From: Rubrobacter sp.
Lineage (GTDB): Bacteria; Actinomycetota; Rubrobacteria; Rubrobacterales; Rubrobacteraceae
Direction: 5' to 3'
Assembly (NCBI GenBank): GCA_013695475.1
Contig: JACDAJ010000173.1
Span: 1 to 32,890 of the forward strand
Length of the DNA stretch: 32,890 bases
The translations under genes and the position numbers were made by a program. Of this stretch, positions 1 to 20,889 are shown piece after piece. The notes beneath the pieces were generated by a model. It searched no databases and was not told the DNA's origin. It saw nothing but the letters and a program-made list of their open reading frames with translations. The stretch's first letter is position 1, and each line of letters starts with the position of its first letter.

Positions 1-44
1 TCCCGGAAAGACGGATGGTCGTCCACGAGAAGCGTCTTTATCAA
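1..44 (-). CDS. Response regulator, N-terminal fragment (cut by window edge)
   Basis: Only the first 14 codons are visible. Read on the minus strand from a TTG start at 44, they give (M)IKTLLVDDHPSFR, the usual opening of a receiver domain: a hydrophobic first strand, then the paired acidic residues that help bind magnesium. The TTG start overlaps the TGA stop of the upstream kinase (TTGA), a translational-coupling arrangement, so the two probably form one two-component operon. VDDHP openings are common in NarL/FixJ-type regulators, but the output domain lies outside the window. Confidence 0.75.
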   Translation of the reverse strand, partial: MIKTLLVDDHPSFR

Positions 45-1621: not shown

Positions 1622-2053
1622 CCGCAAACCACCCCATCAAACATCGGAAAATCGAATGCAATTTCCATTATATACGAACGACCGTTCCCCCCCGCCGGAA
1701 AGACGGTGAGTGGCGAATGGTGAATGCTTTTTCTCGACCGTCTCTTCCCGGACACTTTCGCCTCCCCGCCCGGCGAACTCCCGATAAATTCGAGACGATG
1801 CTTCGACAGCGAAAGTTTCGATATCCGCCTTTCCCGACCCCCGAAACGAGCGAAGCGAGTGCCTCCCGACTCCCGGCATTTTCGCAATTTGGCTATTTTT
1901 GGGGATGCGGCGGTCATATCGGAAGGCTCAAAATGTATCTCGGATGCACGGGAAAGATTTTGTATGGTGGATGCTCAAGCGGAAGTCTGTCTGGTTTTCG
2001 GCCTCTTCTTTGTCGGGGGCGCGTTTTTCGGGCGGGCGGGAAGAGGGTGAGAG
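1622..2053. other. Divergent intergenic region, kinase / sulP
   Basis: There is no credible gene here. The region holds one copy of the dispersed element (1700-1892), and the ribosome binding site of the SulP gene (GAAGAGGGTGAGAG, ending next to ATG 2054). Promoters for both flanking operons must lie here, but I could not pick a clear -35/-10 pair. Reading frames across the area are short and have the composition of the repeat. Confidence 0.6.
1700..1892 (+). repeat. Dispersed heptamer-headed element, copy A
   Basis: It begins with a degenerate 7-bp repeat (GGTGAAT-like, 1706-1727). It then carries TTCGCCTCCCCGCCCGGC at 1757-1774, which is found exactly on the other strand at 27448-27465. 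It also has ATGCTTCGAC near 1798 and ends with TCCCGACTCCCGG at 1864-1876 followed by a TTTTCGCAATTTGG tail. The same blocks occur in the same order in copies B (18455-18630), C (27351-27586) and D (13979-14145). It has no coding capacity. Confidence 0.6.
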
Positions 2054-3754
2054 ATGAGCAGCGACGAGGTAGGCCGACAGCCAGTGGCCGGGGGCGAGCC
2101 GGAGCCGGAGCGCCCGGAGCCGCCGAAGGATTATTTGCCGGGGCTGGCCGAGAACTGGAAGAATGACGCGGTCTCCGGGTTCGTCATCTTCCTCATCGCA
2201 CTTCCGCTGTGCCTCGGCATCGCGCTCGCTTCCGGGTTCCCGCCGATAGCCGGGATCATCTCCGGCATCATCGCGGGCATGCTCGTCTCGCTGATCAGCG
2301 GCTCGCATGTCACGATAAACGGCCCGGCGGCGGGTATGATCGTGATCGTCCTCGGAGCCGTCCAGGAACTCGGCGGCGGAGACGCGGCTCTCGGCTACCA
2401 ACTCGCGCTCGCCGTCGGCGTCGTGGCCGGGGTCATCCAGATCGGACTCGCGTTCATACGAGCCGGGAAACTCACCGGGTTCTTCGCCTCTTCGGTGATC
2501 CACGGCATGCTCGCCGGGATCGGCCTCATCATCATGGCCGGGCAAATCCACATCGCCCTCGGACGCGAAAACCCCGGCGAACACGGACTCGGAATTCTCA
2601 CCGCCATCCCACCGACTTTCTTGAATTTGAATCCGTATGTCGCGCTCATCGGGCTGGCGGCGGTTCTCATCATGGTTTTCTGGCCGAAGATGGGGAGGAT
2701 CGCCGGGATCGTCCCCGCCCCCCTCGTCGCGGTGGTCATCGGGACGCTCATGGCTATCGGCCTCGGCGTCGGGAGCGGCGCCCCGTATACGCTTTTCGGG
2801 AACACATACGAGACGGGGGCGCAGTTCCTCGTCCCGCTGCCGGAGGGCGGACTCCTCGCGGGATTCGCTTTCCCGGACTTCTCGCAAATACTCACCGGGA
2901 CTTCCATAAAGTGGATCTTCCTCTTCGTCTTCGTGGCGAGTTTGGAATCCCTCCTCACCGCCGAGGCGGTTGACAAAATAGACCCGTACAAACGCCAGTC
3001 GAACATGAACAAGGAATTGTTCGGCAAGGGCGTCGGGAACGCGCTTTCGAGCGGCATCGGCGGGCTGCCCATGATCGCCGAGGTCGTCCGCAGCAAAGCG
3101 AACATTTTGCAGGGCGCGAAAACCCGGTGGTCGAACTTCTTCCACGGCTTCTTCCTCCTCGCGTTCGTCCTCGCGGTGCCGGGGCTTTTGTCGCAGATTC
3201 CACTCTCCGCCCTCGCCGGAGTCCTTCTCGTCATCGGCTTCCGGCTCGCCCACCCGAAAGAATTCGGCCACGCGCTCCACGTCGGACGCACGGAGTTTTT
3301 GTTCATGCTCGTCACGGCGATCACCGTTCTTTTGACCGACCTCCTTATCGGGGTGGCGACCGGACTCATCGTGGCGTTCATCATCGCGTTCGTCGTCGGG
3401 CGCACGAAGCCGTCGAACGTTTTCAAGCCGAAGGTGGATATCCAGTCGGAGAACGGGACGGTTCCGGTCAATTTCTCGGGGGCGCTCGGGTTCCACAACT
3501 TCCTCGGGATTCGGAGTCGGTTGGATTCCGTGCCGGAAGGAAAGAACATCGTGATGGATTTCTCGGGGGTTCATTTCATAGACCACACGGTCATGGATCG
3601 CCTCTCCGACTTCGACCGCGTATACACCGACAACGGCGGCGAGGTCGAGTGGCGGAACATGGACCACCTCGAAGCCTCCGGCCACGACGACCTCTCGCCG
3701 AGGCGCGGGACGCCCGTGGCGGCGGAGGAGACAAGAACCCCGACTTCGGTATAG
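2054..3754 (+). CDS. SulP family anion (probable bicarbonate) transporter with STAS domain
   Basis: A 566-residue membrane protein. After a proline- and glutamate-rich tail of about 35 residues, it has the SulP core of about 12 hydrophobic segments (residues 38-450). This includes the early GSHVTINGPAAGMIV block, where the substrate site of SLC26/SulP proteins is built. Residues 465-545 match a short STAS domain (VNFSGALGFHNFL, then NIVMDFSGVHFIDHTVMDRL). SulP proteins move sulfate, bicarbonate or dicarboxylates, and BicA is the cyanobacterial Na+/HCO3- member. The position at the head of a DabA/antiporter cluster makes bicarbonate the best guess for substrate, but the sequence alone does not prove it. 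The start is set by a GAAGAGGGTGAGAG binding site next to ATG 2054. The stop lies 10 bp before the CBS gene. Confidence 0.88.
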   Translation: MSSDEVGRQPVAGGEPEPERPEPPKDYLPGLAENWKNDAVSGFVIFLIALPLCLGIALASGFPPIAGIISGIIAGMLVSLISGSHVTINGPAAGMIVIVLGAVQELGGGDAALGYQLALAVGVVAGVIQIGLAFIRAGKLTGFFASSVIHGMLAGIGLIIMAGQIHIALGRENPGEHGLGILTAIPPTFLNLNPYVALIGLAAVLIMVFWPKMGRIAGIVPAPLVAVVIGTLMAIGLGVGSGAPYTLFGNTYETGAQFLVPLPEGGLLAGFAFPDFSQILTGTSIKWIFLFVFVASLESLLTAEAVDKIDPYKRQSNMNKELFGKGVGNALSSGIGGLPMIAEVVRSKANILQGAKTRWSNFFHGFFLLAFVLAVPGLLSQIPLSALAGVLLVIGFRLAHPKEFGHALHVGRTEFLFMLVTAITVLLTDLLIGVATGLIVAFIIAFVVGRTKPSNVFKPKVDIQSENGTVPVNFSGALGFHNFLGIRSRLDSVPEGKNIVMDFSGVHFIDHTVMDRLSDFDRVYTDNGGEVEWRNMDHLEASGHDDLSPRRGTPVAAEETRTPTSV

Positions 3755-3764
3755 CGAGGACTCC

Positions 3765-4166
3765 ATGCTCATCGAATCATTCGTGACTCGGCGGGAGATC
3801 CTCTCCGTGGAGCCGGGCGACACCCTCGCCGAGGCGGCCCGGCGAATATGGGAGCGCCGCGTGGGTTCGGCGGTGGTGATCTCCGGCGACGACCCTCCCG
3901 GAATCATCACCGAGCGGGACATCCTCCGCGCGGTCGCCGAAGGAGCCGACCCGACGGGCGTGAAAGTCGGCGAATACATGACCTCCCGGGCGGTCGCCAT
4001 CACCCCGGCGTGGCACGTCGAGGACGCCGCCCGAACCATGATCGAGCGCGGTTTCCGGCACCTCATCGTGATCGAAGAGGAAAGTGGAGAAATCGCGGGC
4101 ATACTCTCGATCCGGGACATGATGAGGGCGATGCTCGAAACGAAAAAAAGGACGCTCGCCGGATGA
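3765..4166 (+). CDS. Two-CBS-domain protein
   Basis: A soluble 133-residue protein built of two CBS motifs, about residues 8-60 and 68-127. Hallmarks are GSAVVISGDDPPGIITERDILRAVAEG in the first and FRHLIVIEEESGEIAGILSIRDMMRAM in the second. CBS pairs bind adenine nucleotides or S-adenosylmethionine and often gate a partner transporter or enzyme. It lies 10 bp after the SulP stop and 39 bp before the first NuoM-like gene, so it is almost certainly cotranscribed. By inference it could report energy state to the SulP transporter or the membrane complex. The ligand is unknown. Confidence 0.88.
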   Translation: MLIESFVTRREILSVEPGDTLAEAARRIWERRVGSAVVISGDDPPGIITERDILRAVAEGADPTGVKVGEYMTSRAVAITPAWHVEDAARTMIERGFRHLIVIEEESGEIAGILSIRDMMRAMLETKKRTLAG

Positions 4167-4205
4167 GGCCGACGAGGACATGAGGACGACGACGAGGAGC
4201 GTGTC

Positions 4206-5684
4206 ATGGCTGTCATGAACAACATCCCTATCCTGAGCTTGATCGTCTGGCTGCCGCTCGTCGGCGTCGCGGTCGTCCTCTTCCTGCCCGCGAAGCAGGT
4301 GAAGGCGATTCAAGCCGTCGCGGTCGGGTGCGCCGGGGTGTCGTTCCTCCTTTGCTGGAGCCTCCTCTTCGCCTTCGACCGAGGCACGAGCGAACTCCAA
4401 TTCACCGAGCGAGCCGAGTGGATCCCCGACCTCGGCATGACATACTCCCTCGGCCTCGATGGCCTCTCTTTCCCCCTCCTTCTTCTCACCACCCTCGTCA
4501 CCCTCGCGGCGGTCGTCGCTTCTTTGAGCCTCATCCACGACCGGATAAAGGGATATTTCGCATGGTTCCTTCTTTTGGAGTTCGCGGTTCTCGGGGTTTT
4601 CGTGGCGCAGGATTGGTTCCTGTTTTACGTTTTCTATGAGGTCGGCCTCGTCCCGATGTTCTTCCTGATCGGCTTGTGGGGAGGGACGAGAAAAGACGTC
4701 GCGGCGATGAGCTTTTTCTTGTATACGCTCGTCGGTTCGATCTTCATGCTCCTCGGGATCATCGCGGTTTATCTCAACTCGGACCCCGGCACGTTCGATA
4801 TGCGCCAGCTTCTCGAGTCCCGCGACGGATGGACGGAGACGTTCCAGACCGGAGCTTTCCTCGCGTTTCTCGTCGGGTTCGCGGTGAAGATCCCGATCTT
4901 CCCGCTCCACGGCTGGCTGCCGCTCGCGCACGTCGAGGCCCCGACCCCCGTGAGCATGGTCCTCTCCGGCCTCCTCCTGAAAATGGGCGCATACGGCCTC
5001 ATGCGGGCCGGGGAGCTTTTGCCGCTCGGCCTCGAATGGTTCGCGCCGATTCTCCTCGCGCTCGGATTCATAAATATTTTGTATGGCGCGCTCCTCGCGT
5101 GGCGTCAGACGGACTTGAAATCCATCGTGGCCTTCTCATCCATCGACCATATGGGGTTCGTCCTCGTCGGCATCGCCGCGCTGAACGTCCTCGGGTTCAC
5201 CGGGGCTGTGATGATGATGGTGACGCACGGCATCATCTCGGCGGCTCTATTTTTCCTCGTCGGGGTTATTTATGAGCAGGCGCATACCCGCGACATGACG
5301 GATTTCAGCGGGCTTATGTCGAGTGTGCCGGTGTTTTCGATCCTCATTTCGCTTTCGTTCCTCGCTTCGATGGGGCTTCCGGGTTTGGCGCAGTTCGTGA
5401 GTGAGTTCCACGTTCTCGTCGGCGGTTTCCAGGAATGGGGGTTGTGGATCATCATCGCCCTCCTCGGGATCCTTCTCACGGCGGCGTATTCGCTGCGGAC
5501 CATCGGACGGATGGTGATGGGCGATGTGGACCCACGATGGGCGAACCTGAAAGACATCGGCGGGAGCGAACTCGTCGTCATCCTCCCCCTCGCCGCGCTC
5601 ATGCTCATACTCGGACTTTATCCGAGCGTGGCTCTCGGACTCATGAACGAAACGATGGCTCAATTTGCTGCCCTCTTCGGCTAG
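4206..5684 (+). CDS. NuoM-like antiporter subunit 1 of DAB-type cluster
   Basis: A 492-residue integral membrane protein of the Proton_antipo_M family with about 14 hydrophobic segments. It keeps the charged residues of the ion path. These are E145 in VFYEVGLVP, K228 in FAVKIPIFP, K259 in LLLKMGAYG and E400 in VSEFHVL, with the canonical HGWLPLAHVEAPTPVS loop between the lysines. Of the five antiporter-like proteins here it is closest to true NuoM. The start is ATG 4206 with GAGGAG upstream. The stop is 10 bp before dabA, with the dabA binding site in the gap. With no NuoBCDI genes around, a role as proton or sodium channel in a DabA complex is more likely than complex I. Confidence 0.88.
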   Translation: MAVMNNIPILSLIVWLPLVGVAVVLFLPAKQVKAIQAVAVGCAGVSFLLCWSLLFAFDRGTSELQFTERAEWIPDLGMTYSLGLDGLSFPLLLLTTLVTLAAVVASLSLIHDRIKGYFAWFLLLEFAVLGVFVAQDWFLFYVFYEVGLVPMFFLIGLWGGTRKDVAAMSFFLYTLVGSIFMLLGIIAVYLNSDPGTFDMRQLLESRDGWTETFQTGAFLAFLVGFAVKIPIFPLHGWLPLAHVEAPTPVSMVLSGLLLKMGAYGLMRAGELLPLGLEWFAPILLALGFINILYGALLAWRQTDLKSIVAFSSIDHMGFVLVGIAALNVLGFTGAVMMMVTHGIISAALFFLVGVIYEQAHTRDMTDFSGLMSSVPVFSILISLSFLASMGLPGLAQFVSEFHVLVGGFQEWGLWIIIALLGILLTAAYSLRTIGRMVMGDVDPRWANLKDIGGSELVVILPLAALMLILGLYPSVALGLMNETMAQFAALFG

Positions 5685-5694
5685 AAAGGGACAC

Positions 5695-8600
5695 ATGCTC
5701 CCCGACATCACAAACGAAATGCGCCACCACCTCAAGCACGAGGTGGATCATTTCAGCCACCTCCTCGCCGGACAAGGCCCGATCGAAACCTTCGTCCACC
5801 ACAACACACTCCACGGCCTCCAACATCTCCCCTTCGAGGTCGCGGTCGTCGAGGCCGAACGCATTCTCGGAGGCCGCGGATATTTGCCGAACGAAGAATT
5901 CCGCGCCCTTTACGCGAGAGGCCGCATCTCCGACGACGACATATCCGCCGCCTTCGAGAGACGCGAATTCCCCGACGAACCGAACGTGGAGGTCGGGAAA
6001 TGGCGCATCGAAGCCGGGGAGGTCCGGCGCGTCCATCTCCTCCGGGGCATCGAGCCACTCGATCCCGCCCGGCTCGGCTTCGAAGTCCACGAACGAGGCG
6101 CGACCCGCCGCCTCCACGACGACGTCCCGGACGACACCCGGGCATCGCTCATGGAAAAAGCGAAAGACGAACTCGCCCGGAGCATGGACCGCATAGGCCG
6201 CGAATGGACGCTCTCGGACTGGATCGGCGTCCATCTCAATCTCGATCCGGCGAAACGCCTCCGCGTCGAAGTCCGAGGCGAAATGGAGGAAGGCCGGGGC
6301 GAATCGGGAAATACGGAAGCCGGACTTCGAGCGATGGGAATCCCCGAAGAACGGTGGGACGGGTACCTCGCGTGCATAGACCGGCGTTTCGGAGGCGCGT
6401 CTGTGAAAGATGCCGAGCGCGGTCGAGCCGGAGACAAGCCTGTGAAAGACGCGAAGCGCGGACAAATTGAAGATGCGTCCGTGAACGATGCCGGGCGCGG
6501 TCGAATCGGGGACGCTCCCGTGACCGAGGCGGAGCGAGATCAAATACGCCGTCTCTGGCTCGATGCGGAGGCGCGTATTGTGAGGAGGCTCGCCCGGCGG
6601 CATTTCGGAGTGCGCGGGACTTTTTCTGACATCGCCCGTCGTTTCGAGGCGGATTTGGAGGGGTATGCGGTTCTTTCGCTTTGGGGGGCGTGCCTCGGGG
6701 CGCATGGCCTCGAAGACCCGCTCTCGACGACGGATTCGGAGCATTTCGGGGAGCGGAATCCGGACGGGGCGGCGGAGCGGATGGAGGAGCGTTTCCGGCA
6801 CATGGAGCGGTGGGGAGGGCCGCCCATCCCACTCACCGAAGAACTCGGGAACGCCGTCCGGGAAGTCGTGCATGGGGAGATGTCTCGTTTGGAAGGAAGC
6901 TCCGAAAACGGCGGCGGCGACGAGGCTTCGACTTTGGAGGCGGCGCATCTTTGCTGGCTGGTTCTCCACGACCTCGGGAAGGCCGGGCTGAATCGGAGGG
7001 GGCTTGCCGCGCTCGAGATTCTTCTTTCTTTGCGGGGGGAGCATTCCGAGCTTTTGGCGGAGCTTCACAGGCGGGACCCGCGGCGCCGGATGCGCGAGTT
7101 CATGAGCCGGAGCATCGAGGCGGAGATGTGTCGGCTCGGGCGCGACAAATCCCACAGCGATTTCTTGATGGAGATCGTCGGTGAGGACGTGAGCGGGCGG
7201 GTGAACGAGTATGTGATCAAACGCTGCGCGGCGTTCCTCGACGAGGGTTTGGCGGCGTGGCGGCTTCCGGGACGCGCTCTCGGGTTTTATGACTCGTGGA
7301 AGAGCCTCGCCGGGAAAGACCGGACTTTGGAGTTCGACAACCTTCCCGGATGGCGCGACTCACTCCATCATTTGCCCGCGCTGGCGAGGGATGCGGTTAT
7401 ACAAAGGCTTCGGGAGCTTGGCGTTCGGGAGGAGGATTGGGGGGATTATCTGGGACGTTTGATCCTTCAGCTTCCCGGATGGGCGGGCATGATCCAATGG
7501 CGAGAAACCCACCCGCAATACGCCCGCCAGGAAACACAACCGATCGACCTCATCCAATACCTCGCCGTCCGCCTTTTCTACGAAACACTCCTCATCCAGA
7601 AAATCTGCGGCGAAACGTGGCGCCTCGACGGAAGCGTACACAGCCTCCGCGCATACTTCGAGTCCCACCCCTCCGAATTCTTCGTCCGGCGCGAAATGCG
7701 GAAAGGGAACCTCCCCGACTACCTCGCCGAACAATCCCGGAACCTCGCCGCCGACCCGTCCGCTTCCGGCGGCCCCGAAGACGAACGCTGGCAAACCCTC
7801 GCCGACATGATCTGGGCGCACCGCGAAAGCGACGCCGCCTCGGCGATATGCGGCGACACATGGCGACTCTTCCATCTCGCGCAATTCCTCGCCCTCACAG
7901 GCGAGGAAATCCGTTCGCTCTCCGAAAAAGAAAGAGTGCGTTTGCTCGGAATCGTGGATGGGTTTCCGGGTTCGGAGCATGGGCCGGTTTGGCTCACGGC
8001 TTATGAGCGGAATTATCGGGACGGGATTTTGAACGCGCTCTCCGAGAATCGTGGGCGGGGTCGCTGGAAGACGCGGGAGACGCGCCCGAAGGCGCAGGTC
8101 GTGTATTGCATTGACGAGCGCGAGGAGGCGATTCGCCGCCACTTCGAGGAGATAAACCCGGAGTATGAGACATTCGGAGCGGCGGGGTTCTTCGGGGTTG
8201 CGATGCAATATCAGGCTTTGGATGACCACGGGACGACCCCGCTTTGCCCGGCGGTTGTCAGCCCGATAAACAAGATCGTGGAGGTTCAGCGCCCGGAGGA
8301 GGCCGAGCGGCTTGCGACGCACAATACGCGCTCGAAGTGGGAGGAGACTTTCCACAACGCATACTGGGAGACGGAGCGGAACTCCGTTTCGGCGTATTTC
8401 CTCATCCACCTCGTCGGGCTTTTGCAAAGCGTGCCTTTGATCGGGAGGATCCTCGCCCCCCGCGCATATTCGGTGGTCGCGGATAAAGTCCATCACCGCG
8501 TCGTCCCATCGGTCCGGACCTCCCTCGCGCTCGACGCCGGGGAGACTCACAAGCTCGACGGCGCGTACAAAGTCGGGTTCGTCATCGAGGAGCAGGCGAA

Positions 8601-9684
8601 TCAAGTCGAGACGATGCTCCGGAACCTCGGCCTGACATACGGTTTCGCTCGCATCGTGCTTTTCAGCGGACACGGCTCCGCGAGCATAAACAACCCCCAC
8701 GAATCGGCGCACGACTGCGGAGCATGCGGCGGAAAACACGGCGGCCCGAACGCCCGAGCCTTCGCCGCGATGGCGAACCGCCCGGAAGTCCGGGAAATCC
8801 TCCGGGAGCGCGGCATCGAAATACCGGACGACACATGGTTCGTCGGTTCGCAGCACAACACGGCCAACGAGCTTTATACGTACTCCGACATCGAGGACAT
8901 CCCGGAATCTCTCCGCGAGGATTTCGCGAGCCTCACCGCCGACCTCGACGAGGCGCGCGCCCGCTCCGCGCAGGAAAGATGCCGACGCTTCGCCTCCGCC
9001 CCGAAGGACGTCTCCCCGAAGAAATCCCTCCGCCACATCGAAGGTCGATCCGTGGATTTGAGTCAAGTACGGCCGGAATGGGGCCATGCGACGAACGCCT
9101 TCGCCGTCGTCGGGCGGCGCTCGATCACGCGCGGGCTTTTCCTCGACCGGAGGCCGTTCCTCATTTCGTATGACCCCACACAAGACCCGGACGGAACCAT
9201 CGTCGAGAGGATACTCCTCGCCGTCGGTCCGGTCGGGGCGGGCATAAACCTCGAATATTATTTCTCCACCGTGGACAACAAAAAGTATGGCTGCGACACG
9301 AAAGTTCCGCACAACGTGTCCGGCCTCATCGGGGTGATGGAGGGGGCGATGAGCGACCTCCGGACCGGGCTTCCGCGGCAGATGGTGGAGATCCACGAGG
9401 CCATGCGCCTCCAACTCATAGTGGACGCGAAACCCGAGATACTCGGCGAGATATACGGTCGCCAGCCCGGAATTCAAGAACTTCTCGACAACGCATGGGT
9501 GCATCTCATCGCAATGGACCCGGACACGGAGGAGTTCCATATGTTCGTCCCCGGAGTCGGTTTCGTACTCTGGGACGAGCCGTTGAAACCGCTTCCGAAA
9601 GCAGATTCCTCCTTCGAATGGTATCGGGGGAAGACGGACTTCCTTCCTCCGGCGCACATCGTCCATAATGGAGGGGGGAGATAA
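5695..9684 (+). CDS. dabA: DabA-type inorganic carbon transporter subunit (UPF0753/DUF2309), oversized
   Basis: About 1329 residues, against roughly 800-1050 for most DabA proteins. DabA resembles a beta-carbonic anhydrase and with DabB hydrates CO2 one way to bicarbonate in the cytoplasm. The N-terminus has the family block GPIETFVHHNTLHGLQHLPF. A zinc site like that of Halothiobacillus DabA2 (C351, D353, H524, C539) is visible as C805 and D807 in CIDEREE, H993 in FSGHGSA and C1008 in DCGACGG, with the same C-x-D and 15-residue H-to-C spacing. LPGWAGMI, a conserved patch, lies near 595. Residues 235-286 are four 13-residue tandem repeats within a charged insert. An upstream in-frame ATG at 5665 lies inside the previous gene; ATG 5695 follows AAAGGGA and is preferred. 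The protein is soluble and probably docks on the membrane subunits. Confidence 0.93.
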   Translation: MLPDITNEMRHHLKHEVDHFSHLLAGQGPIETFVHHNTLHGLQHLPFEVAVVEAERILGGRGYLPNEEFRALYARGRISDDDISAAFERREFPDEPNVEVGKWRIEAGEVRRVHLLRGIEPLDPARLGFEVHERGATRRLHDDVPDDTRASLMEKAKDELARSMDRIGREWTLSDWIGVHLNLDPAKRLRVEVRGEMEEGRGESGNTEAGLRAMGIPEERWDGYLACIDRRFGGASVKDAERGRAGDKPVKDAKRGQIEDASVNDAGRGRIGDAPVTEAERDQIRRLWLDAEARIVRRLARRHFGVRGTFSDIARRFEADLEGYAVLSLWGACLGAHGLEDPLSTTDSEHFGERNPDGAAERMEERFRHMERWGGPPIPLTEELGNAVREVVHGEMSRLEGSSENGGGDEASTLEAAHLCWLVLHDLGKAGLNRRGLAALEILLSLRGEHSELLAELHRRDPRRRMREFMSRSIEAEMCRLGRDKSHSDFLMEIVGEDVSGRVNEYVIKRCAAFLDEGLAAWRLPGRALGFYDSWKSLAGKDRTLEFDNLPGWRDSLHHLPALARDAVIQRLRELGVREEDWGDYLGRLILQLPGWAGMIQWRETHPQYARQETQPIDLIQYLAVRLFYETLLIQKICGETWRLDGSVHSLRAYFESHPSEFFVRREMRKGNLPDYLAEQSRNLAADPSASGGPEDERWQTLADMIWAHRESDAASAICGDTWRLFHLAQFLALTGEEIRSLSEKERVRLLGIVDGFPGSEHGPVWLTAYERNYRDGILNALSENRGRGRWKTRETRPKAQVVYCIDEREEAIRRHFEEINPEYETFGAAGFFGVAMQYQALDDHGTTPLCPAVVSPINKIVEVQRPEEAERLATHNTRSKWEETFHNAYWETERNSVSAYFLIHLVGLLQSVPLIGRILAPRAYSVVADKVHHRVVPSVRTSLALDAGETHKLDGAYKVGFVIEEQANQVETMLRNLGLTYGFARIVLFSGHGSASINNPHESAHDCGACGGKHGGPNARAFAAMANRPEVREILRERGIEIPDDTWFVGSQHNTANELYTYSDIEDIPESLREDFASLTADLDEARARSAQERCRRFASAPKDVSPKKSLRHIEGRSVDLSQVRPEWGHATNAFAVVGRRSITRGLFLDRRPFLISYDPTQDPDGTIVERILLAVGPVGAGINLEYYFSTVDNKKYGCDTKVPHNVSGLIGVMEGAMSDLRTGLPRQMVEIHEAMRLQLIVDAKPEILGEIYGRQPGIQELLDNAWVHLIAMDPDTEEFHMFVPGVGFVLWDEPLKPLPKADSSFEWYRGKTDFLPPAHIVHNGGGR
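6397..6552 (+). repeat. Four 39-bp in-frame tandem repeats inside dabA
   Basis: Four consecutive 39-bp units start at 6397, 6436, 6475 and 6514. They encode the 13-residue blocks ASVKDAERGRAGD, KPVKDAKRGQIED, ASVNDAGRGRIGD and APVTEAERDQIRR. The repeat is charged and likely forms a flexible or helical linker. It keeps the frame because 39 is a multiple of three. Units have diverged, so the expansion is not recent. Confidence 0.85.
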
Positions 9685-9713
9685 ATGTCCCTCGCGGCGG
9701 GTTCCACGGGGCG

Positions 9714-9743
9714 GGTTTCAGGTTTCGGGTTTCAGGTTTCAGG
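9714..9743 (+). repeat. Heptanucleotide tandem repeat GGTTTCA x4
   Basis: Four uninterrupted 7-bp units, GGTTTCA, GGTTTCG, GGTTTCA, GGTTTCA, followed by GG. One unit differs by one base. It lies 30 bp after the dabA stop, as other heptamer runs in this window lie next to gene ends. Confidence 0.85.
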
Positions 9744-9875
9744 AAAAGCTCCGGTGCGCGGGGCGCGCCGTCTCGCCGGATGTGGATTTCCGCCCGACAT
9801 CGCCGCCTCCCCCATAGAGACGACCCGCCGAGCCCTCTCCCCCGCCGCGAAGAGAGGTATGCCGAGAAGCAAGGC

Positions 9876-9953
9876 GCATCGGGCGGAGACGCATCGGGGT
9901 GAGGCGCGACGGGGTGAGACGCGACGATGGGACGAGGCGCGGCGGGATGGGAT
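9876..9953 (+). repeat. Degenerate 15-bp tandem repeat
   Basis: Five units of the type GCGACGGGGTGAGAC start at 9876, 9891, 9906, 9921 (18 bp) and 9939. The plus strand is almost free of pyrimidine runs. It ends about 75 bp before the NuoL-like start codon. Function unknown. Confidence 0.7.
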
Positions 9954-10027
9954 GCGCCATTGGCACATCTCTATGGCAGGGAAGGTTTGTCGAAGTTTGA
10001 ATTTCATTCCGAACGGGGGCCGATAAT

Positions 10028-12364
10028 ATGTTCGAACTTCTCGTGATCCTCATCGTCGCGCTCCCGCTTTTGGCGGCTCTCGCCAATGGAGTGAACGCGC
10101 TCTTCGGCGAGCGGTATTCGTATGTCGCCACGTATCGGGTGGCGTGCGGCGCCATATTTCTCTCCTTCCTCGGGGCGGTGTGGATTTTCGTCGGGGTTCT
10201 TCTCGACCCGGCGCCTCGGGAGGTCGTTGTTTATCGGTGGCTTTTCAGCGGCGACCTCAATGTGGACTTCGCTTTCCTCATAGATTCGCTTTCCGCGATC
10301 ATGATGCTCGTCACGACGGGCATCGGGTTTTTGATCGCCGTCTTCTCCGTGAACTATATGCACAACGAGCGGGGCTTCTCGCGCTTCTTCACGGTGACGC
10401 CTTTGTTCGTGTTCGCGATGCTCGTTTTGGTGATGGCGAATAACTATGTCCTTCTCTTTCTCGGGTGGGAGAGCGTGGGAGTTTGCTCGTATTTGCTCAT
10501 AAGTTATTACTACGAGCGACCCGCCTCCGCGAAGGCCGGGACGAAGGCGTTCGTCATGAACCGCATCGGCGACGCGGGGTTCCTCATCGGCGTTTTCCTC
10601 ATCGTCGCCACTTTCCAGACGACGGACTTTTCGGGCGTATTCTCACAGGCCGAGTCGGCGAGTACGGCGACGCTCACCGCCATCGGGCTTTGCCTTCTCG
10701 TCGGGGCGGTCGGGAAATCGGCGCAACTTCCGCTCACGACTTGGTTGGCGCGGGCGATGGAGGGGCCGACGCCGTCGAGCGCGCTCATCCACGCCGCGAC
10801 GATGGTGACGGCGGGGGTGTATATGATCGCCCGCAGCCACGTCATCTACGACCTCGCCCCGAACGCCCTCCTCGCAGTCGCCATAGTCGGCGCGGCTACG
10901 GCTCTCTTCGGGGCGATGGTCGGCCTCGTCCAGACGGACATAAAAAGTATTCTGGCGTATTCGACGACCTCGCAACTCGGACTCATGTTCCTCGCGTGCG
11001 GCCTCGGAGCTTATCCGGTGGCAATTTTCCACCTCGTCGCGCATGCTTTTTTCAAGACGCTTCTTTTCCTCACCGCGCCCTCGATACTCCATCATCTCCA
11101 CGGCGGGGCGGATGCCCGGAAGGTCGGGCGGGTGAAACAGAGCGTCCCGGTTTTGTATCAGTTTTTCCTCATCGGGGCGGTGGGGCTTATGGCGCTTCCG
11201 TTCGTTTCGGTATGGTGGCAGAGTGATGCCCTCGGGGCGTTTTCGGGCGGTTTGTATATCCTCGTCGCGGTCGGTGTGATCGCGGTTTTCGCCGCCGCTT
11301 TCGCCACGAGCCGGATGGTTCATGAATCGTTCTTCGAGGACGCGCATGGAGATCATGGCGCGTCGGCTTCGCCGTGGAAGTTTGTGGCGCCGCTCGTTAT
11401 TTTGGCGGCGGTCGGGGGGGTCGGGGTGGCGGTCGGGATATTGCCGGGCGGACTCGATGGGACTTGGTTTCAGGAATTTCTGGCTCCGGTGGTTTCGGCG
11501 CAGCCGGGGGTTCCGGGGGGGAGTGTGCCGCTCGCGGCGGCTTTGCTCGGGCTTTTGATCCTCCTTCTCGTCGTCGGGTGGTTCGCGCCACTTTTCCTCG
11601 ACCGTTTCAGGCCGGAGCGTCCGGGACTCCTCTTTTTCAAGACGCGGGGGATTTACAACCTCGCCCTCAACCGTTTCTGGCTGGATGAGATGTATGACGC
11701 GGCTTTCGTTCGGACGAGCAAGAAACTGGGGCATCTCCTCGAACGGGTGGACGCGGCGTTCATTGACCGGGCGACGGGCGTCGAGGCTCCGGCGAGGCGT
11801 GTTCAGACGGCGCGGGAAACTTGGGAGGAGCAACGCCTCATCAGCCACGCCGCCACCGAGCCGACCTCGACGTGGGATGAGGAGGAAAGGAAGGAGAAGG
11901 CCGCTCTCGGTGGCGCGGCGGGGGTTCTCGGGGCTTTGACGCAGGCGGGAGGCGGGGCTTCGGGGTGGGTCGAGCGGGAGGGGGTCAGTCGGGCGCCGGG
12001 GATTCTCGGGACTTTGACGAGGGTGAGCGGCGGTGCTTCGGATTTCGTGGAGAGGGGAATTCGGCGGGCGCCGGGGGTTCTCGGGTGGCTGACCGGGTTG
12101 AGCGGGAGCATCTCGAACTCGATGGAGAGGGGTGTGGACCGGATCCCGGACATGCTCGAACGACTGACCGAGGGTGTGGTTTCGCTCTCGGTGTGGGTTG
12201 AGAAGGCCACGTTCACCGGGGTTCATGTGAGCATGCCACAGGCGAGCGGCTTCCTCGGACGCGCCATGACGAAGACCGAGGAGGTCATCGGGCGCCCGGT
12301 GGTCATCGGGGGGATCATTCTGGTTTCACTCTCCGCCATTTTAGTGAGGGCGATGTGGCTATGA
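10028..12364 (+). CDS. NuoL/DabB-like antiporter subunit with enlarged C-terminal arm
   Basis: A 778-residue membrane protein; E. coli NuoL has 613 residues. The core (1-545) has the NuoL signatures E148 in LGWESVGVCSYLLI, K230 in VGKSAQLPLTTWL, AMEGPTPSSALIHAATMVTAGVYMI, K306 in DIKSILAYSTTSQLG and K343 in FFKTLLFL. LNRFWLDEMYD near 550 is the usual sign before the lateral helix. Instead of a short arm there are about 200 residues containing four 25-26-residue repeats (632-732), then a final hydrophobic segment (about 757-778). This is the best DabB candidate of the cluster. It ends in an ATGA overlap with the next gene. By inference the arm runs along the neighbouring antiporter subunits. 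It is predicted to carry protons or sodium ions. Confidence 0.88.
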   Translation: MFELLVILIVALPLLAALANGVNALFGERYSYVATYRVACGAIFLSFLGAVWIFVGVLLDPAPREVVVYRWLFSGDLNVDFAFLIDSLSAIMMLVTTGIGFLIAVFSVNYMHNERGFSRFFTVTPLFVFAMLVLVMANNYVLLFLGWESVGVCSYLLISYYYERPASAKAGTKAFVMNRIGDAGFLIGVFLIVATFQTTDFSGVFSQAESASTATLTAIGLCLLVGAVGKSAQLPLTTWLARAMEGPTPSSALIHAATMVTAGVYMIARSHVIYDLAPNALLAVAIVGAATALFGAMVGLVQTDIKSILAYSTTSQLGLMFLACGLGAYPVAIFHLVAHAFFKTLLFLTAPSILHHLHGGADARKVGRVKQSVPVLYQFFLIGAVGLMALPFVSVWWQSDALGAFSGGLYILVAVGVIAVFAAAFATSRMVHESFFEDAHGDHGASASPWKFVAPLVILAAVGGVGVAVGILPGGLDGTWFQEFLAPVVSAQPGVPGGSVPLAAALLGLLILLLVVGWFAPLFLDRFRPERPGLLFFKTRGIYNLALNRFWLDEMYDAAFVRTSKKLGHLLERVDAAFIDRATGVEAPARRVQTARETWEEQRLISHAATEPTSTWDEEERKEKAALGGAAGVLGALTQAGGGASGWVEREGVSRAPGILGTLTRVSGGASDFVERGIRRAPGVLGWLTGLSGSISNSMERGVDRIPDMLERLTEGVVSLSVWVEKATFTGVHVSMPQASGFLGRAMTKTEEVIGRPVVIGGIILVSLSAILVRAMWL
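11921..12223 (+). repeat. Four 75-78-bp in-frame repeats encoding the lateral arm
   Basis: Units begin at residues 632, 658, 683 and 708 of the NuoL-like protein. Each reads like RAPGILGTLTRVSGGASDFV followed by ERGIR. The first three are close copies in DNA and protein; the fourth is diverged (RIPDMLERLTEGVVSLSVWV). The pattern is amphipathic, with Gly/Ser turns in the middle. It is absent from ordinary NuoL and DabB as far as I know these families. Confidence 0.8.
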
Positions 12365-14175
12365 ACGAAGTCACGGCGATGGAGCAGATCGGGTTCCCCA
12401 TTTTGAGCGTTTTGCTTTTCCTCCCGGTGGTGTTCATGGTCGCCCTCGCTTTCGTGAAGAACGAGCAGCTCGCGTACCGGATCGGGCTGGCGGGGGCGGC
12501 ACTCACTTTCATCCTCGCGGCGTTCCTCGCGTACAGTTTCCGGATCGGGACGTCGGACATGCAATTCGTCGAACGGCTCGGGCCGCTTCCGGGGATCGGG
12601 GTCGGATATTATCTCGGCGTGGATGGGGTGAGCATTCTTTTCATCCCGGTTACGGCACTTCTCGCTTTGCTCGTCGTGCTTTATGCGGAGTATTCCGTTC
12701 AGGCGGACGCCCGGCATTATTTGATGGCGACGCTCGGCCTCGAAGCGACCATGCTCGGGGCTTTCCTCTCCCTCGACCTCGTGCTTTTCTGGGCTTTCTT
12801 CGTCCTCGAACTCGTTCCGGCTTATTTCCTCATCACGCGGTGGGGAACCGGGGATCGGCGGCGGGAGGCGGCTTTCTCGTATATTTATTTCATGCTCACG
12901 GGGGCGGCGCTCATGCTCGTGGGGATGGTTCTCCTCGCGGTGAATCACAGCATGGTCGCGGGGTCGGGACTGTCTTTCGATTTCGTCGCGCTCCTCGATG
13001 TCCCGGTGTCGGAGAGTTTGCAGACCGTTATTTTCTTCCTTTTGTTCATCGGGTTCGCGGTGAAAGCTCCTTTGTTCCCGCTCCATACGTGGATGCCGAA
13101 GGTTTTGGAGGAGGGGCCGGTTGTGGGGATGAGTGTTTTTCTGGTGGGGATCAAGCTCGGGACGTATGGGATGCTCCGGTTCATCATTCCGCTTTTGCCG
13201 GAGGCCGCGAGGGAGTGGCTGTGGCTCATGGCGGTTCTCGGAGCGGTGAGCATTGTGTATGGAGCCATGATCGCACTCATACAAACGAACCTTCGGCGGC
13301 TTCTCGCGTTTGCGAGCGTGAGCCATATGGGGGTCGTGGTTTTGAGTATTTTCACGCTGAATATTTATGGCCTCGAAGGCGGGCTTTTGCAAATGATCAA
13401 CTTCGGCGTGGCCGGGGCGGGACTCTTCTTCGTGGCGGGGTTCATAAACACCCGCGTCGGGCCGCCGGAACTCTCATCGCTCGGCGGCGTTTCGACGAAC
13501 GCCCCGTGGCTGACCGTCGCCTTCCTCGTCATCGCGCTCGCGACGGTCGGGCTTCCCGGCACGGGTGGGTTCAATGGGGAGCATCTCGTTCTCATCGGGG
13601 CGTTCGAGGTTCATTGGGCGTTGTCCATAGCCGCCGGGTCGGCCATATTTTTGACGGCGGCGTATTTCCTGTGGTATTTCCAGCGGGCGTTTCTCGGCGA
13701 CGTCAACGAGCGCACCGTCCACAAAATGAAGGATCTCCGGCTTCGGGAGATGGTCATCACGCTCTCGCTCGGGGCTGTGATCTTTTGGATCGGCCTCGCG
13801 ACAACGCCGTTCGTCGAAAGAATGCGCCCCTCCCTCGAAGCATTGGAAACCCGCGCCGGAGTCACTTCGCCCGACAGCTTTGCCGAGAGTGGTGAGGGGC
13901 AAAGTTCCGAGGCGTCCATCGCACGTGTGAATGATGTTCCGTTTGCGGGTGCGGAGGGTGGAAACCCGGAGCCGATCTCCGATGCCCGCCTCGAAAACCG
14001 TGAGTCGGGGAAGGCGAGGGAGCGAGGTATTCGCCGCCGAAGCCTCCACCGTATCCGGCGAAAGTACGTCGAGCGGGAAGGCGCGAGCGTCGGAGATGAG
14101 CGGGTCGAGAATGACCCCACTCCCCACTCCCCACTCCCCACTCCCGATCTTTCCGACCGAAGGGAGCGACCATGA
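12361..14175 (+). CDS. NuoM-like antiporter subunit 2, with repeat-derived C-terminal tail
   Basis: About 604 residues. The start is ATG 12361 in the ATGA overlap with the NuoL-like stop; GTG 12355 is an alternative. The ion-path residues fall at nearly the same numbers as in E. coli NuoM: E150 in FVLELVPAY, K235 in FAVKAPLFP, K265 in VGIKLGTYG and E407 in NGEHLVLIG. The loop after HTWMP is KVLEEGPVVGMS in place of the usual AHTEAPT, a feature shared with the next gene. The membrane part ends near residue 490. The remaining tail of about 110 residues is hydrophilic and of low complexity, and residues 540-595 are encoded by a copy of the dispersed element found between genes elsewhere in this window. 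The stop overlaps the next start as ATGA. Confidence 0.87.
   Translation: MNEVTAMEQIGFPILSVLLFLPVVFMVALAFVKNEQLAYRIGLAGAALTFILAAFLAYSFRIGTSDMQFVERLGPLPGIGVGYYLGVDGVSILFIPVTALLALLVVLYAEYSVQADARHYLMATLGLEATMLGAFLSLDLVLFWAFFVLELVPAYFLITRWGTGDRRREAAFSYIYFMLTGAALMLVGMVLLAVNHSMVAGSGLSFDFVALLDVPVSESLQTVIFFLLFIGFAVKAPLFPLHTWMPKVLEEGPVVGMSVFLVGIKLGTYGMLRFIIPLLPEAAREWLWLMAVLGAVSIVYGAMIALIQTNLRRLLAFASVSHMGVVVLSIFTLNIYGLEGGLLQMINFGVAGAGLFFVAGFINTRVGPPELSSLGGVSTNAPWLTVAFLVIALATVGLPGTGGFNGEHLVLIGAFEVHWALSIAAGSAIFLTAAYFLWYFQRAFLGDVNERTVHKMKDLRLREMVITLSLGAVIFWIGLATTPFVERMRPSLEALETRAGVTSPDSFAESGEGQSSEASIARVNDVPFAGAEGGNPEPISDARLENRESGKARERGIRRRSLHRIRRKYVEREGASVGDERVENDPTPHSPLPTPDLSDRRERP
13979..14145 (-). repeat. 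Dispersed heptamer-headed element, copy D, inside a coding region
   Basis: Read on the minus strand it starts with four CCCCACT/AGTGGGG heptamers (14115-14142). It then has CTCGACGTACTTTCGCCG (14056-14073), 16 of 18 bases identical to copy B at 18567-18584. It ends with CCGACTCACGG and a GGCGGGCATCGG tail. On the plus strand it is translated as residues 540-595 of NuoM-like subunit 2 without a stop. Confidence 0.6.
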
Positions 14176-15731
14176 TTCTCGAAGAAGTGTTCGCCATCGA
14201 GCAGATCGGGTTCCCCATATTAAGCACGCTCATCCTCCTTCCCGTGCTTTGCGCGGTGGTTCTCGCTTTCGTCCGGGACGACGGACTCGCCCGGAAGGTG
14301 GCTTTCGGGGGGGCTTCGCTGACGCTCGTTCTCGCGCTCGTTATGGCCGTCGGGTTCGTTTCGGGGACGTCGGATATCCAGTTCGCCGAAAGGGCGGAGT
14401 GGATGCCGAGCATCGGGGTCGGGTATTTCGTGGGGGTGGATGGGATAAGCGTCCTCTTTATTCCACTCACGGCTTTCCTCACCCTGCTCGTGATGCTTCT
14501 TTCGTGGGGGACGGTCCGGTTTTTGACGAAGGGGTATTTGATCGCCCTTCTCGGACTCGAAGCGGCGACCATCGGGGTCTTCGCTTCGCTCGACCTTCTT
14601 TTGTTTTTCGTGTTTTGGGAACTCATGCTCGTGCCGAGCTATTTCCTTTTGAAGATGTGGGGAACGGGGCCGCGCCGCCAATACGCCGGGACGAAGTATG
14701 TGATGTATATGCTCGTCGGTTCGGCGCCGTTGCTCGTCGGAATAGTCGTTCTCGGGGTGAATCATTTCAATGTGACGGGGGAGTATTCGTTTGATTTCGT
14801 CGCGCTTTTGGAGACTCCGGCTTCGGCGGGCATCCAAACTTTGATCTTTTTCCTCCTCGCGTTCGGGTTCGCGGTGAAGGGGCCGCTTTTCCCGTTCCAC
14901 ACGTGGATGGCTTCAGTGTTCTCGGAGGGGCCGGTGGGGATGAGCGTGATGCTCATCGGGCTGAAAATGGGGATTTACGGATTCATCCGCTTCGCCATCC
15001 CGCTCGCCCCCGAGGCGGCGAGCGAATGGTTTTGGCTCATCGCCGTCCTCGGTTTGATCGCGATTATTTATGGCGCCCTCATCGCGCTCGTCCAGCCGAA
15101 CCTCCGCCGCCTCCTCGCTTTTTCGAGCGTGAGCCACGTGGGACTCGCGACGCTCGGGATGTTCACTTTGAGCACTCAGGGTTTTCAGGGCGGCATCCTC
15201 ATGCTCGTGAACATGGGCATCGCGAGCGCCGGGCTTTTCTTCCTCGCGGGCTTCCTTTATGCGCGAACCGGGTCGTGGGAACTCGGGTCTTTCGGGGGAG
15301 CGGCGCGGACTATGCCGCTCCTCGCGGTGTTTTTCTTCATCGTCGGTCTGGCGAGCATCGGGACGCCCGGCACGAGCGGGTTCCCGGCGGAGTTCCTTAT
15401 TTTCCTCGGCGCTTTCCAGGTTCATTGGGCGCTCGCGGTCGTGGCGGTGGTCGGGATAATTTTGAGTGCGGGATATTTCTTTGTTTATTATGAGCGGGCG
15501 TTTTTCGGGCCGGTCACGCGCGACGCGGTTCGGAAGGCGACCGACCTCCGGCCTCGGGAGACGGCCATCGCGGCGGCTCTCGTCATCGTCATTTTCTTCA
15601 TCGGGCTTTTCCCCGCTCCGCTTTTGAACATGACGAGCGGCTCGACGGAGGCTCTGGCGGAGAGGATCGAAGCCGGCCCGTCCACGCAACTCGCACAGGA
15701 TGAACTCCGGGGGGTGGGAGATGGAGATTAA
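14172..15731 (+). CDS. NuoM-like antiporter subunit 3
   Basis: A 519-residue membrane protein and tandem paralogue of the preceding gene. The starts of the two proteins align (EQIGFPILS), and 20 bases at 14199-14218 are identical to 12382-12401. It keeps E150 in FWELMLVPSY, K236 in FAVKGPLFP, K265 in IGLKMGIYG and E407 in PAEFLIFLG. The post-HTWM loop (ASVFSEGPVGMS) departs from NuoM as in its twin. ATG 14172 overlaps the previous stop (ATGA) and has AGGGAG upstream. The end overlaps the next gene by 11 bp. It is expected to add one more proton or sodium channel to the membrane assembly. Confidence 0.88.
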   Translation: MILEEVFAIEQIGFPILSTLILLPVLCAVVLAFVRDDGLARKVAFGGASLTLVLALVMAVGFVSGTSDIQFAERAEWMPSIGVGYFVGVDGISVLFIPLTAFLTLLVMLLSWGTVRFLTKGYLIALLGLEAATIGVFASLDLLLFFVFWELMLVPSYFLLKMWGTGPRRQYAGTKYVMYMLVGSAPLLVGIVVLGVNHFNVTGEYSFDFVALLETPASAGIQTLIFFLLAFGFAVKGPLFPFHTWMASVFSEGPVGMSVMLIGLKMGIYGFIRFAIPLAPEAASEWFWLIAVLGLIAIIYGALIALVQPNLRRLLAFSSVSHVGLATLGMFTLSTQGFQGGILMLVNMGIASAGLFFLAGFLYARTGSWELGSFGGAARTMPLLAVFFFIVGLASIGTPGTSGFPAEFLIFLGAFQVHWALAVVAVVGIILSAGYFFVYYERAFFGPVTRDAVRKATDLRPRETAIAAALVIVIFFIGLFPAPLLNMTSGSTEALAERIEAGPSTQLAQDELRGVGDGD

Positions 15732-17217
15732 TTCGTTCGCGCCTTTTCTGGCGATGGCGGTTCCTTTGCTCGGGGTCGCGCTCATATATGCGGCTCGGAA
15801 CAGTCCGAATGTCCGGGAGGGATGTTCACTCGGGGCGGCTTCGATCCAGTTTCTCGTCGTCCTCACGATGGTTCCGGCGGTGCTTGCCGGGAACACGCTT
15901 CACTTCACGCTTTTCCCGTTTTTGCCGCAAGTTTCGATCGCGCTCCGGGTGGACGCGCTCGGGATTTTGCTCGCTCTCGTCGCGTCGTTTTTGTGGCTTC
16001 TCACGGTGGTTTATTCCATCGGGTACATGCGTGCGCTCGGGGAGAGCCATCAAACGAGGTTTTTTGCGTGCTTTGCGATCACGCTCGCGGCGACGATGGG
16101 GATCGCGTTTTCGGCGAACCTTCTCACGATGTATGTTTTCTATGAAATCCTGACGTTTGTGACGTATCCGCTCGTTACTCATGAGGGGACTCGGGAGGCT
16201 GTGGCGGCTGGGCGGAGGTATCTTTTTTATCATCTCGGGGCTTCGCTCGTGTTCATGATGCCCGCTGTTTTCCTGACGTACATCATCTCCGGCACGTTCG
16301 ATTTCCAGTCGGGAGGGGTGTTTGCGGCTGGGGCGGGCGGGGCGGTTTTGGTGATTGTTTATTTCATGTTTTTGGCGGGGGCGGCGAAGGCGGCTCTCAT
16401 GCCCCTTCACGGCTGGCTGCCGAATGCGATGGTCGCGCCCGTTCCGGTGAGCGCGCTTTTGCATGCGGTGGCCGTCGTCAATGTGGGCGTATTCGTGATA
16501 CTCCGGGTGATCCTCGATGTTTTCGGGCCGGAGCTTATGGGGGAATTGAATCTCGGGTTCGTGACGGCGATCATCGCTTCGTTCACTATTTTGGTGGCTT
16601 CGTTTTATGCGTTCACGGTTGACAATATAAAGGGGATTCTCGCGTATTCGACCATCGGGCAGCTTTCTTATATGGTGCTTGGCGTGTCGCTTCTCAGCCC
16701 CGAGAGCATGACGGGTGGGATCATCCACATCGCCAACCACGCCTTCGGGAAGATCACGCTGTTTTTCTGCGCCGGATCGATATATGTCGCCGCCCGCACT
16801 TTGAAAGTTTCGGAGATGGGTGGGATCGCCCGTCTCATGCCGTGGACGGCGGGGGCGTTCGCGGTTGGGGCGGTGAGCATCGTCGGCATTCCGCCGACCG
16901 CCGGGTTCATCACGAAATGGTACCTTTTCATCGGAACGATTCAGGCCGGGCAGATCGCATTCTTCTTCGTCCTTTTGATAAGCACGCTCCTCTCCGCCGC
17001 ATATTATTTGCGGGTGTTCCGCATGATCTTCCTCGGAAGCTCCGAGGAGAGCAGCGAAGAACCTTCCGAACCCGCCAAAGATTCGTCCTCGAAGGGTTCA
17101 GTCAAAGAAGGCGCCTTCTTCATTGTTTTCCCGCTGGCATTGTGCGCGGCCATATCCATCGGGCTTGGGATTTATCCGAACTTCCTTCTCGAGTTGGCGC
17201 GGCTGGCGATTCCGTGA
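15721..17217 (+). CDS. MrpD/NuoN-like antiporter subunit
   Basis: About 498 residues from ATG 15721, which has GGGGGTGGGAG just upstream; ATG 15700 is also in frame. It has about 14 hydrophobic segments. E142 lies in VFYEILTFVTYPLV, K223 in GAAKAALMPLHGWLPNAM, and further lysines in DNIKGILAYSTIGQ and HAFGKITLFF. The wording resembles MrpD and the membrane subunits of energy-converting hydrogenases more than NuoN of complex I. A serine- and glutamate-rich loop near residues 440-465 (SSEESSEEPSEPAKDSSSKG) is unusual. As the last gene of the cluster it would be the fifth antiporter-like subunit. Its stop is followed directly, in the same frame, by a vapC remnant. Confidence 0.87.
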   Translation: MEINSFAPFLAMAVPLLGVALIYAARNSPNVREGCSLGAASIQFLVVLTMVPAVLAGNTLHFTLFPFLPQVSIALRVDALGILLALVASFLWLLTVVYSIGYMRALGESHQTRFFACFAITLAATMGIAFSANLLTMYVFYEILTFVTYPLVTHEGTREAVAAGRRYLFYHLGASLVFMMPAVFLTYIISGTFDFQSGGVFAAGAGGAVLVIVYFMFLAGAAKAALMPLHGWLPNAMVAPVPVSALLHAVAVVNVGVFVILRVILDVFGPELMGELNLGFVTAIIASFTILVASFYAFTVDNIKGILAYSTIGQLSYMVLGVSLLSPESMTGGIIHIANHAFGKITLFFCAGSIYVAARTLKVSEMGGIARLMPWTAGAFAVGAVSIVGIPPTAGFITKWYLFIGTIQAGQIAFFFVLLISTLLSAAYYLRVFRMIFLGSSEESSEEPSEPAKDSSSKGSVKEGAFFIVFPLALCAAISIGLGIYPNFLLELARLAIP

Positions 17218-18273: not shown

Positions 18274-18454
18274 GCGACCACCTCTCTAAATACATTCCGA
18301 CAACCGTCATTCCATAAACGATGACTCTCTGTTTCAGCACCATTAATTGTATACGGTTAGAATGTATGTGTCAGACGCAGCTAGGAGATGGGCCGGAATA
18401 TGCAGCGAAACCGGGCGGAAGTTTCCTCCCTCCGGCCAATGAGTGAATTGTATA

Positions 18455-18630: not shown

Positions 18631-18643
18631 TTCTTCACCATCT

Positions 18644-20026: not shown

Positions 20027-20050
20027 GTCCGCGAGAAAGGAGTTAGCGAA

Positions 20051-20371: not shown

Positions 20372-20400
20372 CAGAGCGGCTACGGTTCGGTGCGTTTAGT

Positions 20401-20428
20401 GGGAGCGGACTACGGGTATTCCGCTCCC
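20401..20428 (+). terminator. Hairpin between the two phasin-like genes
   Basis: Stem GGGAGCGGA/TCCGCTCCC (9 bp) with a 10-base loop, followed by GCGTCTTTT. It lies 30 bp after the first phasin stop and 81 bp before the second phasin start, so it may act as a terminator or as an attenuator that sets the ratio of the two proteins. Confidence 0.7.
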
Positions 20429-20859: not shown

Positions 20860-20889
20860 CGAGCGGGAAAAACATTCTGGGGAGATCCC

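Follow-up and report, generated by a model that had tools for sequence, protein, structure and literature searches.

One long DabA with five complex-I-type membrane subunits: a conserved actinobacterial gene cluster that may encode a motive-force-driven vectorial carbonic anhydrase

The analysed stretch of DNA, a window of 32,890 nucleotides from a Rubrobacter sp. assembly (GCA_013695475.1, contig JACDAJ010000173.1, positions 1 to 32,890), contains between positions 2054 and 17217 a cluster of plus-strand genes in which one DabA is combined with five antiporter-like membrane subunits, designated M1, L1, M2, M3, and D. We consider it fairly probable that the cluster encodes one large vectorial carbonic anhydrase, driven by the proton motive force (PMF) and mounted on a complex-I-like arm without a redox module. 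The following features were assigned:

2054..3754, plus strand: SulP-family anion transporter with a STAS domain (Pfam Sulfate_transp, PF00916, E = 4.9e-58)
3765..4166, plus strand: protein with two CBS domains (two Pfam CBS matches)
4206..5684, plus strand: M1, NuoM-type subunit (TIGR01972, E = 2.5e-158, above the cut-off)
5695..9684, plus strand: long DabA of 1,329 aa (PF10070, E = 4.7e-251, whole model covered)
9685..10027, plus strand: non-conserved spacer with a heptamer array (gap of 1 bp in the related loci L055 and L067)
10028..12364, plus strand: L1, NuoL-type subunit with an extended C-terminal lateral-helix region (passes TIGR01974 and the NuoL equivalog PRK06590)
12355..14175, plus strand: M2, NuoM-type subunit without the glutamate of transmembrane helix 5 (TM5) (TIGR01972, above the cut-off)
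14172..15731, plus strand: M3, NuoM-type subunit, closest to M2 in the tree (TIGR01972, above the cut-off)
15700..17217, plus strand: D, MrpD-like subunit (PRK08375-1, E = 9.8e-184, below the curated cut-off)

The Pfam and NCBIfam assignments, with Proton_antipo_M in five proteins of the window and PF10070 in one, agreed with an earlier note made from the sequence alone, which had described one DabA and five antiporter-like genes on the plus strand with SulP and CBS genes at their head. The NCBIfam label of D, whose score lies under the curated cut-off, is “putative cation/H+ antiporter subunit D.” The same note had placed most of the genes in overlap or less than 15 bp apart; the exceptions are CBS and M1 (39 bp) and DabA and L1 (343 bp), the only two gaps above 15 bp. 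The DabA–L1 spacer holds an open reading frame (ORF) at 9685–10026 (113 aa), which was rejected as an extra subunit, as it is not conserved in relatives, and is probably not a gene; the spacer carries an array of the heptamer GGTTTCA, which is matched over short lengths by seven further sites of the genome. The start of DabA, previously set at TTG 5665, is more probably ATG 5695, because the related proteins start there.

Among all ORFs of at least 30 aa in the window, no homolog of NuoA–K was found, which upheld the earlier statement that the cluster lacks NuoB, C, D, and I; neither this redox module nor NuoH, A, J, and K was present in the related DabA loci. In the host genome, contig C158 carries a complete set, nuoA-B-C-D-H-I-J-K-L-M-N, and another nuo cluster is located on contig C75. 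Accordingly, the proposal that the five subunits are orphan pieces of a complex I encoded elsewhere was rejected. The 3.3-Mb genome contains 17 Proton_antipo_M matches in total, and antiporter-like genes outside both nuo clusters lie on contigs C23, C239, C56, and C48 of the same assembly (G000; loci L050–L053). Three of them are consecutive on C23, one being close to D.

A genome search for related loci showed that the arrangement is real and conserved. DabA was detected in 22 of the 397 genomes of a phylum sample, and the assembly of the window has a single copy. The 11 long DabAs compared (1,288–1,344 aa as called) came from Rubrobacteraceae and two other actinobacterial families. Within the limits of the contigs, all long-DabA loci shared the order SulP–(CBS)–M1–DabA–L1–M2–M3–D, and the multi-subunit cluster accompanied the long DabA wherever the contig extended far enough, whereas the short-DabA loci of the phylum had one adjacent DabB (7/7 examined). 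Since the order is kept even where about one third of the DabA-core residues differ from those of the window, its conservation is more than chance. Two loci, L061 and L073, were 99.96% identical over 7 kb despite assignment of their genomes to different families (G301 and G201), and one of these contigs of metagenome-assembled genomes is probably mis-binned; with G301 left out, three families (f1, f2, and f44) retained the cluster. A scan of genome contigs returned two close relatives only, a scan of viral contigs returned none, and a tblastn search of plasmids with DabA gave no full-length long DabA. Another actinobacterial family has a natural single-chain DabB–DabA fusion of 1,400 aa (L054:5685-9887), similar to one reported for Acidimicrobium ferrooxidans.

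The membrane subunits were placed on a phylogenetic tree of 68 antiporter-like proteins, 15 DabBs included. All 15 DabBs formed one clade (100/99), M1 and M2/M3 grouped with NuoM, L1 grouped with NuoL (99/95), and D grouped with the MrpD-like antiporter-like protein of locus L050 of the same genome. L1 again fell among NuoLs (96/95) in a second tree with more NuoL references, and its similarity to PDB entries was much higher for NuoL (329 bits) than for DabB2 (116 bits). In the best trees the DabB clade held none of the five subunits, and a reading of them as “five DabBs” was rejected; a DabB+L1 clade was not rejected statistically (approximately unbiased test, p-AU 0.23 and 0.18), whereas a clade of DabB and NuoL without L1 was rejected (p 0.01).

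Residue comparison showed that the TM7 lysine is kept in all five subunits and the TM5 glutamate in M1, L1, M3, and D. The claim that every subunit keeps both residues thus failed only for M2, where the TM5 site is occupied by valine in 8/8 orthologs (window codon 12802–12804), with a glutamate two residues further. L1 retains the full NuoL ion-pair set, E144, R175, D178, and K229, in 8/8 orthologs, as would be expected if L1 must couple to its neighbors; in contrast, the DabBs lack the TM5 glutamate, and DabB2 of the DAB2 system has partly lost these residues. One position of L1 departs from NuoL:

11210..11227, plus strand: TM12 site of L1, VWWQSD, with loss of NuoL Lys399 (residue comparison)

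Lys399 is absent in 8/8 L1 proteins and also in DabB, and Asp or Glu at the neighboring NuoL Asp400 site was found only in the Rubrobacteraceae copies. In DAB2, the finger of DabA inserts at the TM12 site of DabB (PMC13144422). Because L1, like DabB, lacks the TM12 lysine at this site, it is probably the docking subunit of DabA, which would then sit at the distal end of the arm.

Alternatively, the operon could encode two machines, namely DabA with one partner subunit, for which L1 as a functional DabB substitute is the best candidate, and a separate Mrp-like cation/H+ antiporter of M1, M2, M3, and D that supplies the ion gradient. We regard this as unlikely. Along with the common loss of Lys399, the unrejected DabB+L1 clade, and the MrpD-like character of D, it is favored by the finding that DAB2 works as a heterodimer (PMC13144422). 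M1, M2, and M3, however, are of the NuoM type and not of Mrp types; M1 is encoded upstream of DabA, apart from M2, M3, and D; and the long lateral-helix region of L1 would have nothing to span. An Mrp antiporter, with its MrpA–G set, needs the small subunits MrpB, C, E, F, and G. None was found by Pfam and NCBIfam searches of the cluster ORFs, in which Mrp models were not applied to very short ORFs, and the gaps between the cluster genes leave almost no space for them.

Between the conserved D-E-x-Y-D motif and their C-terminal end, the L1 proteins have 201–243 residues, compared with 73–101 in three complex I NuoLs, and the lateral-helix region is approximately 100–150 residues longer than in NuoL. 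It contains the following element, and the last transmembrane helix of L1 starts after it, from position 12299:

11921..12223, plus strand: four repeats of about 25 residues within the lateral-helix region of L1 (z = 6.2 versus shuffles for the 25-residue autocorrelation)

In the Rubrobacteraceae copies, the repeats recur every 25 residues (z 5.5–6.2; 95% of shuffles below 3.4). L061 has a period of 27 residues (z 7.6) and L059 one of 29 (z 4.3), and the periodicity was weak in L056, L057, and L068; a period of about 25–29 residues was seen in 5/8 orthologs. In unusual forms of complex I, a lateral-helix insertion of 26 residues is found together with an additional pump subunit (PMC9040806). 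The elongated, repeat-bearing helix is compatible with one large assembly, and the presence of four repeats for four neighboring subunits is suggestive.

The residues of DabA were mapped on the DAB2 structure (PMC13144422), and 26 proteins, 11 long and 15 short, were compared with DabA2. The earlier note had missed the substitutions in the active site and the finger revealed in this way. The relevant features of the window copy are as follows:

8107..8124, plus strand: DabA C815, D817, and R819 (= DAB2 C351, D353, and R355), kept in 26/26, and E820 (= S356), not kept
8671..8718, plus strand: Zn ligands H1003 and C1018 (= DAB2 H524 and C539), invariant in all compared
8407..8409, plus strand: His915 at the site of the DAB2 finger Glu444 (residue alignment)
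9085..9087, plus strand: His1141 at the site of DAB2 Leu658 (residue alignment)
5962..7188, plus strand: N-terminal insert of DabA, residues 100–508 of the TTG ORF, absent from short DabAs

The Zn ligands and the Asp–Arg dyad, both required for the activity of DAB2 (PMC13144422), were conserved in 26/26 DabAs. This conservation points to catalysis and stands against a further alternative, in which the cluster is a bicarbonate or cation transporter akin to staphylococcal MpsAB that does not hydrate CO2, with the extra subunits serving Na+ handling and pH homeostasis. The MrpD-like D and the SulP gene would suit such a transporter, and MpsAB, a DabAB homolog, has been argued to use sodium as a Na+/HCO3- symporter (PMC13144422); on balance, we find it improbable.

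Four positions (356, 444, 629, and 658 in DAB2 numbering) distinguished long from short DabAs. All 11 long proteins had Glu at the S356 site, Phe at the L629 site, and His at the L658 site, the last being Leu in 15/15 short DabAs and in DAB2. The E444 site was Glu in 15/15 short proteins, while in the long ones it was Gln (7), His (3), or Asp (1). On a tree built without the four diagnostic columns, the long DabAs formed a single clade (100/100) with a long stem. Its nearest neighbor on the core tree (99/95) was a DabA of 1,037 aa encoded on a Nitrobacter hamburgensis plasmid (L074), which carries two tandem cassettes of DabB, a small protein, this type of DabA, and PII beside RuBisCO. In DAB2, L658 occupies the transition-state position of beta-carbonic anhydrases, which have Gln or His there, and is invariant in 150 DabA2 homologs; the finger Glu444 is essential, E444A and E444Q being inactive (PMC13144422). 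Because this Glu is replaced in the long DabAs, the proton path of DAB2 cannot be transferred to them unchanged, and the active-site and finger substitutions suggest that their coupling is not simply that of DAB2 multiplied.

The histidine at the Leu658 site is of the ordinary beta-carbonic-anhydrase type and could permit freely running catalysis. It would suit a machine that runs in reverse or on another reaction, in which an exergonic step at DabA, such as hydration of metabolic CO2, powers the export of ions by the arm; the retention of complex I pumping residues in the subunits and the lack of a RuBisCO match in the host assembly are in keeping with this scheme, and outward pumping by an exergonic reaction was what the COGNAT authors first supposed for the YbcC family (PMC5700660). 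However, the energy of CO2 hydration is far too small to pump several ions against 100–150 mV, and the studied relatives take up CO2 or bicarbonate (PMC13144422), so that we assign this scheme little likelihood.

The N-terminal insert measures about 370 aa in relatives. It had no Pfam match, and a plasmid search with the insert alone as query gave no match. Its profile aligned over 140 columns with that of the helical domain next to it (hhalign probability 95%, E = 4.9e-8, in a two-profile comparison with no database correction). By this alignment, part of the insert duplicates the N-terminal helical domain. A 78-bp tandem duplication at 6397–6545, accounting for about 40 extra residues in the insert region, is found in the window copy only.

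Taken as a single machine, the cluster would work as follows. A zinc carbonic-anhydrase-like DabA would dock on a complex-I-type membrane arm of L1, M1, M2, M3, and D that has no redox module, probably capping its L1 end, a position that we infer; the lateral helix of L1, extended by repeats of about 25 residues, would strap the neighboring subunits together. Driven by the proton (or sodium) motive force, ion flow through the arm would power DabA, which would hydrate CO2 to bicarbonate in one direction only. The anion handled by SulP would probably be bicarbonate or a counter-anion, and expression would be controlled by the divergent kinase system. At 150 mV, one coupled proton would allow a disequilibrium of approximately 10^2.5-fold and five approximately 10^12.7; at 40 mV, five ions would allow 10^3.4. 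Since one proton at 150 mV already gives about 10^2.5, coupling further ions to each CO2, as the earlier note had proposed, would be worthwhile only where the motive force is low, as in energy-starved cells, and five coupled ions would be sensible only there or if some subunits do not conduct. A more specific proposal, which we put forward tentatively and hold to be somewhat doubtful, is that the five-subunit arm drives one DabA equipped with a beta-carbonic-anhydrase transition-state residue at the cost of several ions per CO2, as an independent counterpart of cyanobacterial NDH-1MS that runs on PMF alone and can concentrate bicarbonate at very low motive force.

Several observations weigh against a single large PMF-driven machine. 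Five ions per CO2 are extravagant at normal motive force, and seven long DabAs have at the finger site the Gln that inactivates DAB2. The repeats of L1 are weaker in family f2, and the agreement between the numbers of repeats and neighbors may be a coincidence. The AlphaFold2 models, made from three-row alignments, were unusable, both for L1 (mean pLDDT 34, pTM 0.23) and for DabA 1–800 (mean pLDDT 44.7), the latter low-confidence model giving no Foldseek match at E ≤ 0.001. Finally, no RuBisCO match was found in the assembly of the window (92% complete), which leaves the need for bicarbonate unexplained. RuBisCO was present in 5/13 of the searched genomes with the long DabA type; the bicarbonate may therefore be used for autotrophy in part of the hosts and by other carboxylases in the remainder.

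Cyanobacterial NDH-1MS complexes mount a carbonic-anhydrase activity on complex-I-type NuoL/NuoM subunits; they are redox-driven, contain the full NDH-1 modules, and use CupA. In the cluster, by contrast, there are no NDH core subunits, the enzyme is DabA (homology to CupA was not searched), and L1 scored 223 bits against an NdhF3 cut-off of 588.7. Respiratory complex I and group 4 hydrogenases share the NuoL- and NuoM-type subunits with the cluster, but their redox module is not encoded in it. The obvious model is the PMF-driven CO2 hydration by DAB2 of Halothiobacillus neapolitanus (PMC13144422; PDB 9rd0), which has in common with the cluster a PF10070 DabA with C351/H524/C539, D353, and R355 and an antiporter-like membrane partner. 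DAB2, however, has one DabB in place of the five NuoL/NuoM/MrpD-type partners, and its DabA lacks the partly duplicated N-terminal segment of about 370 residues. The Nitrospira 2M complex I and Complex_I_3 of Manganitrophaceae, the latter with five pump subunits as here, likewise combine extra NuoM/MrpD subunits with a lengthened lateral helix, but keep a quinone/ferredoxin redox arm (PMC9040806), whereas in the cluster DabA is the catalytic partner.

The gene arrangement is not wholly new. The earlier statement that described DAB systems consist of one DabA and one DabB overlooked clade C of YbcC (= DabA) from the COGNAT study of 2017, in which ybcC is located upstream of a nuoL homolog, together with SulP (COG0659) and NuoM (COG1008) genes; the authors already suggested that the count of membrane subunits is linked to that of the ions (PMC5700660). 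The cluster agrees with that clade in its ybcC–nuoL order and in having SulP and NuoM genes close by. Clade C was, however, only outlined, before the function of DabA was known, and the main text does not deal with the active site, the finger, the lateral helix, the domain duplication, or the five-subunit order (PMC5700660). A literature search, with most subscription papers outside its reach, gave no earlier account of the substitutions, the domain duplication, or the repeats in the lateral helix.

The surroundings of the cluster include a regulatory gene that the earlier note had missed:

41..1627, minus strand: sensor histidine kinase with a multi-transmembrane N-terminus (HisKA and HATPase_c, Pfam)

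It is divergent from the cluster; the locus L063 has an ortholog at the same divergent place (650 bits), and an OmpR-type regulator and/or a kinase is located upstream of SulP in L057, L061, and L069. The divergent kinase, often accompanied by a response regulator in relatives, probably places the cluster under two-component control. SulP is the conserved first gene of the cluster in relatives, and its protein had weak matches to the BicA, DauA, and SulP models, all far under their cut-offs. The CBS gene was present only in the Rubrobacteraceae loci L055, L063, and L067 and was not detected in the loci of family f2; its product is a possible nucleotide sensor. Downstream of the cluster, at 17503–32857, the window encodes two SDRs, a PadR regulator, two SnoaL-like proteins, an acyl-CoA dehydrogenase, an alpha/beta hydrolase, a PhaC-type PHB synthase, and a zinc alcohol dehydrogenase.

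The natural replacements in the long DabAs bear on two points published for DAB2, those at Glu444 on the role of the finger glutamate as a proton carrier and those at Leu658 on the link between the missing transition-state residue and silence without motive force. If the cluster does encode a single PMF-driven machine, motive force alone can turn the antiporter arm of complex I into a motor that drives an enzyme of a soluble type; the number of subunits would then act as a gear, and the series coupling of antiporter-like subunits would become testable.

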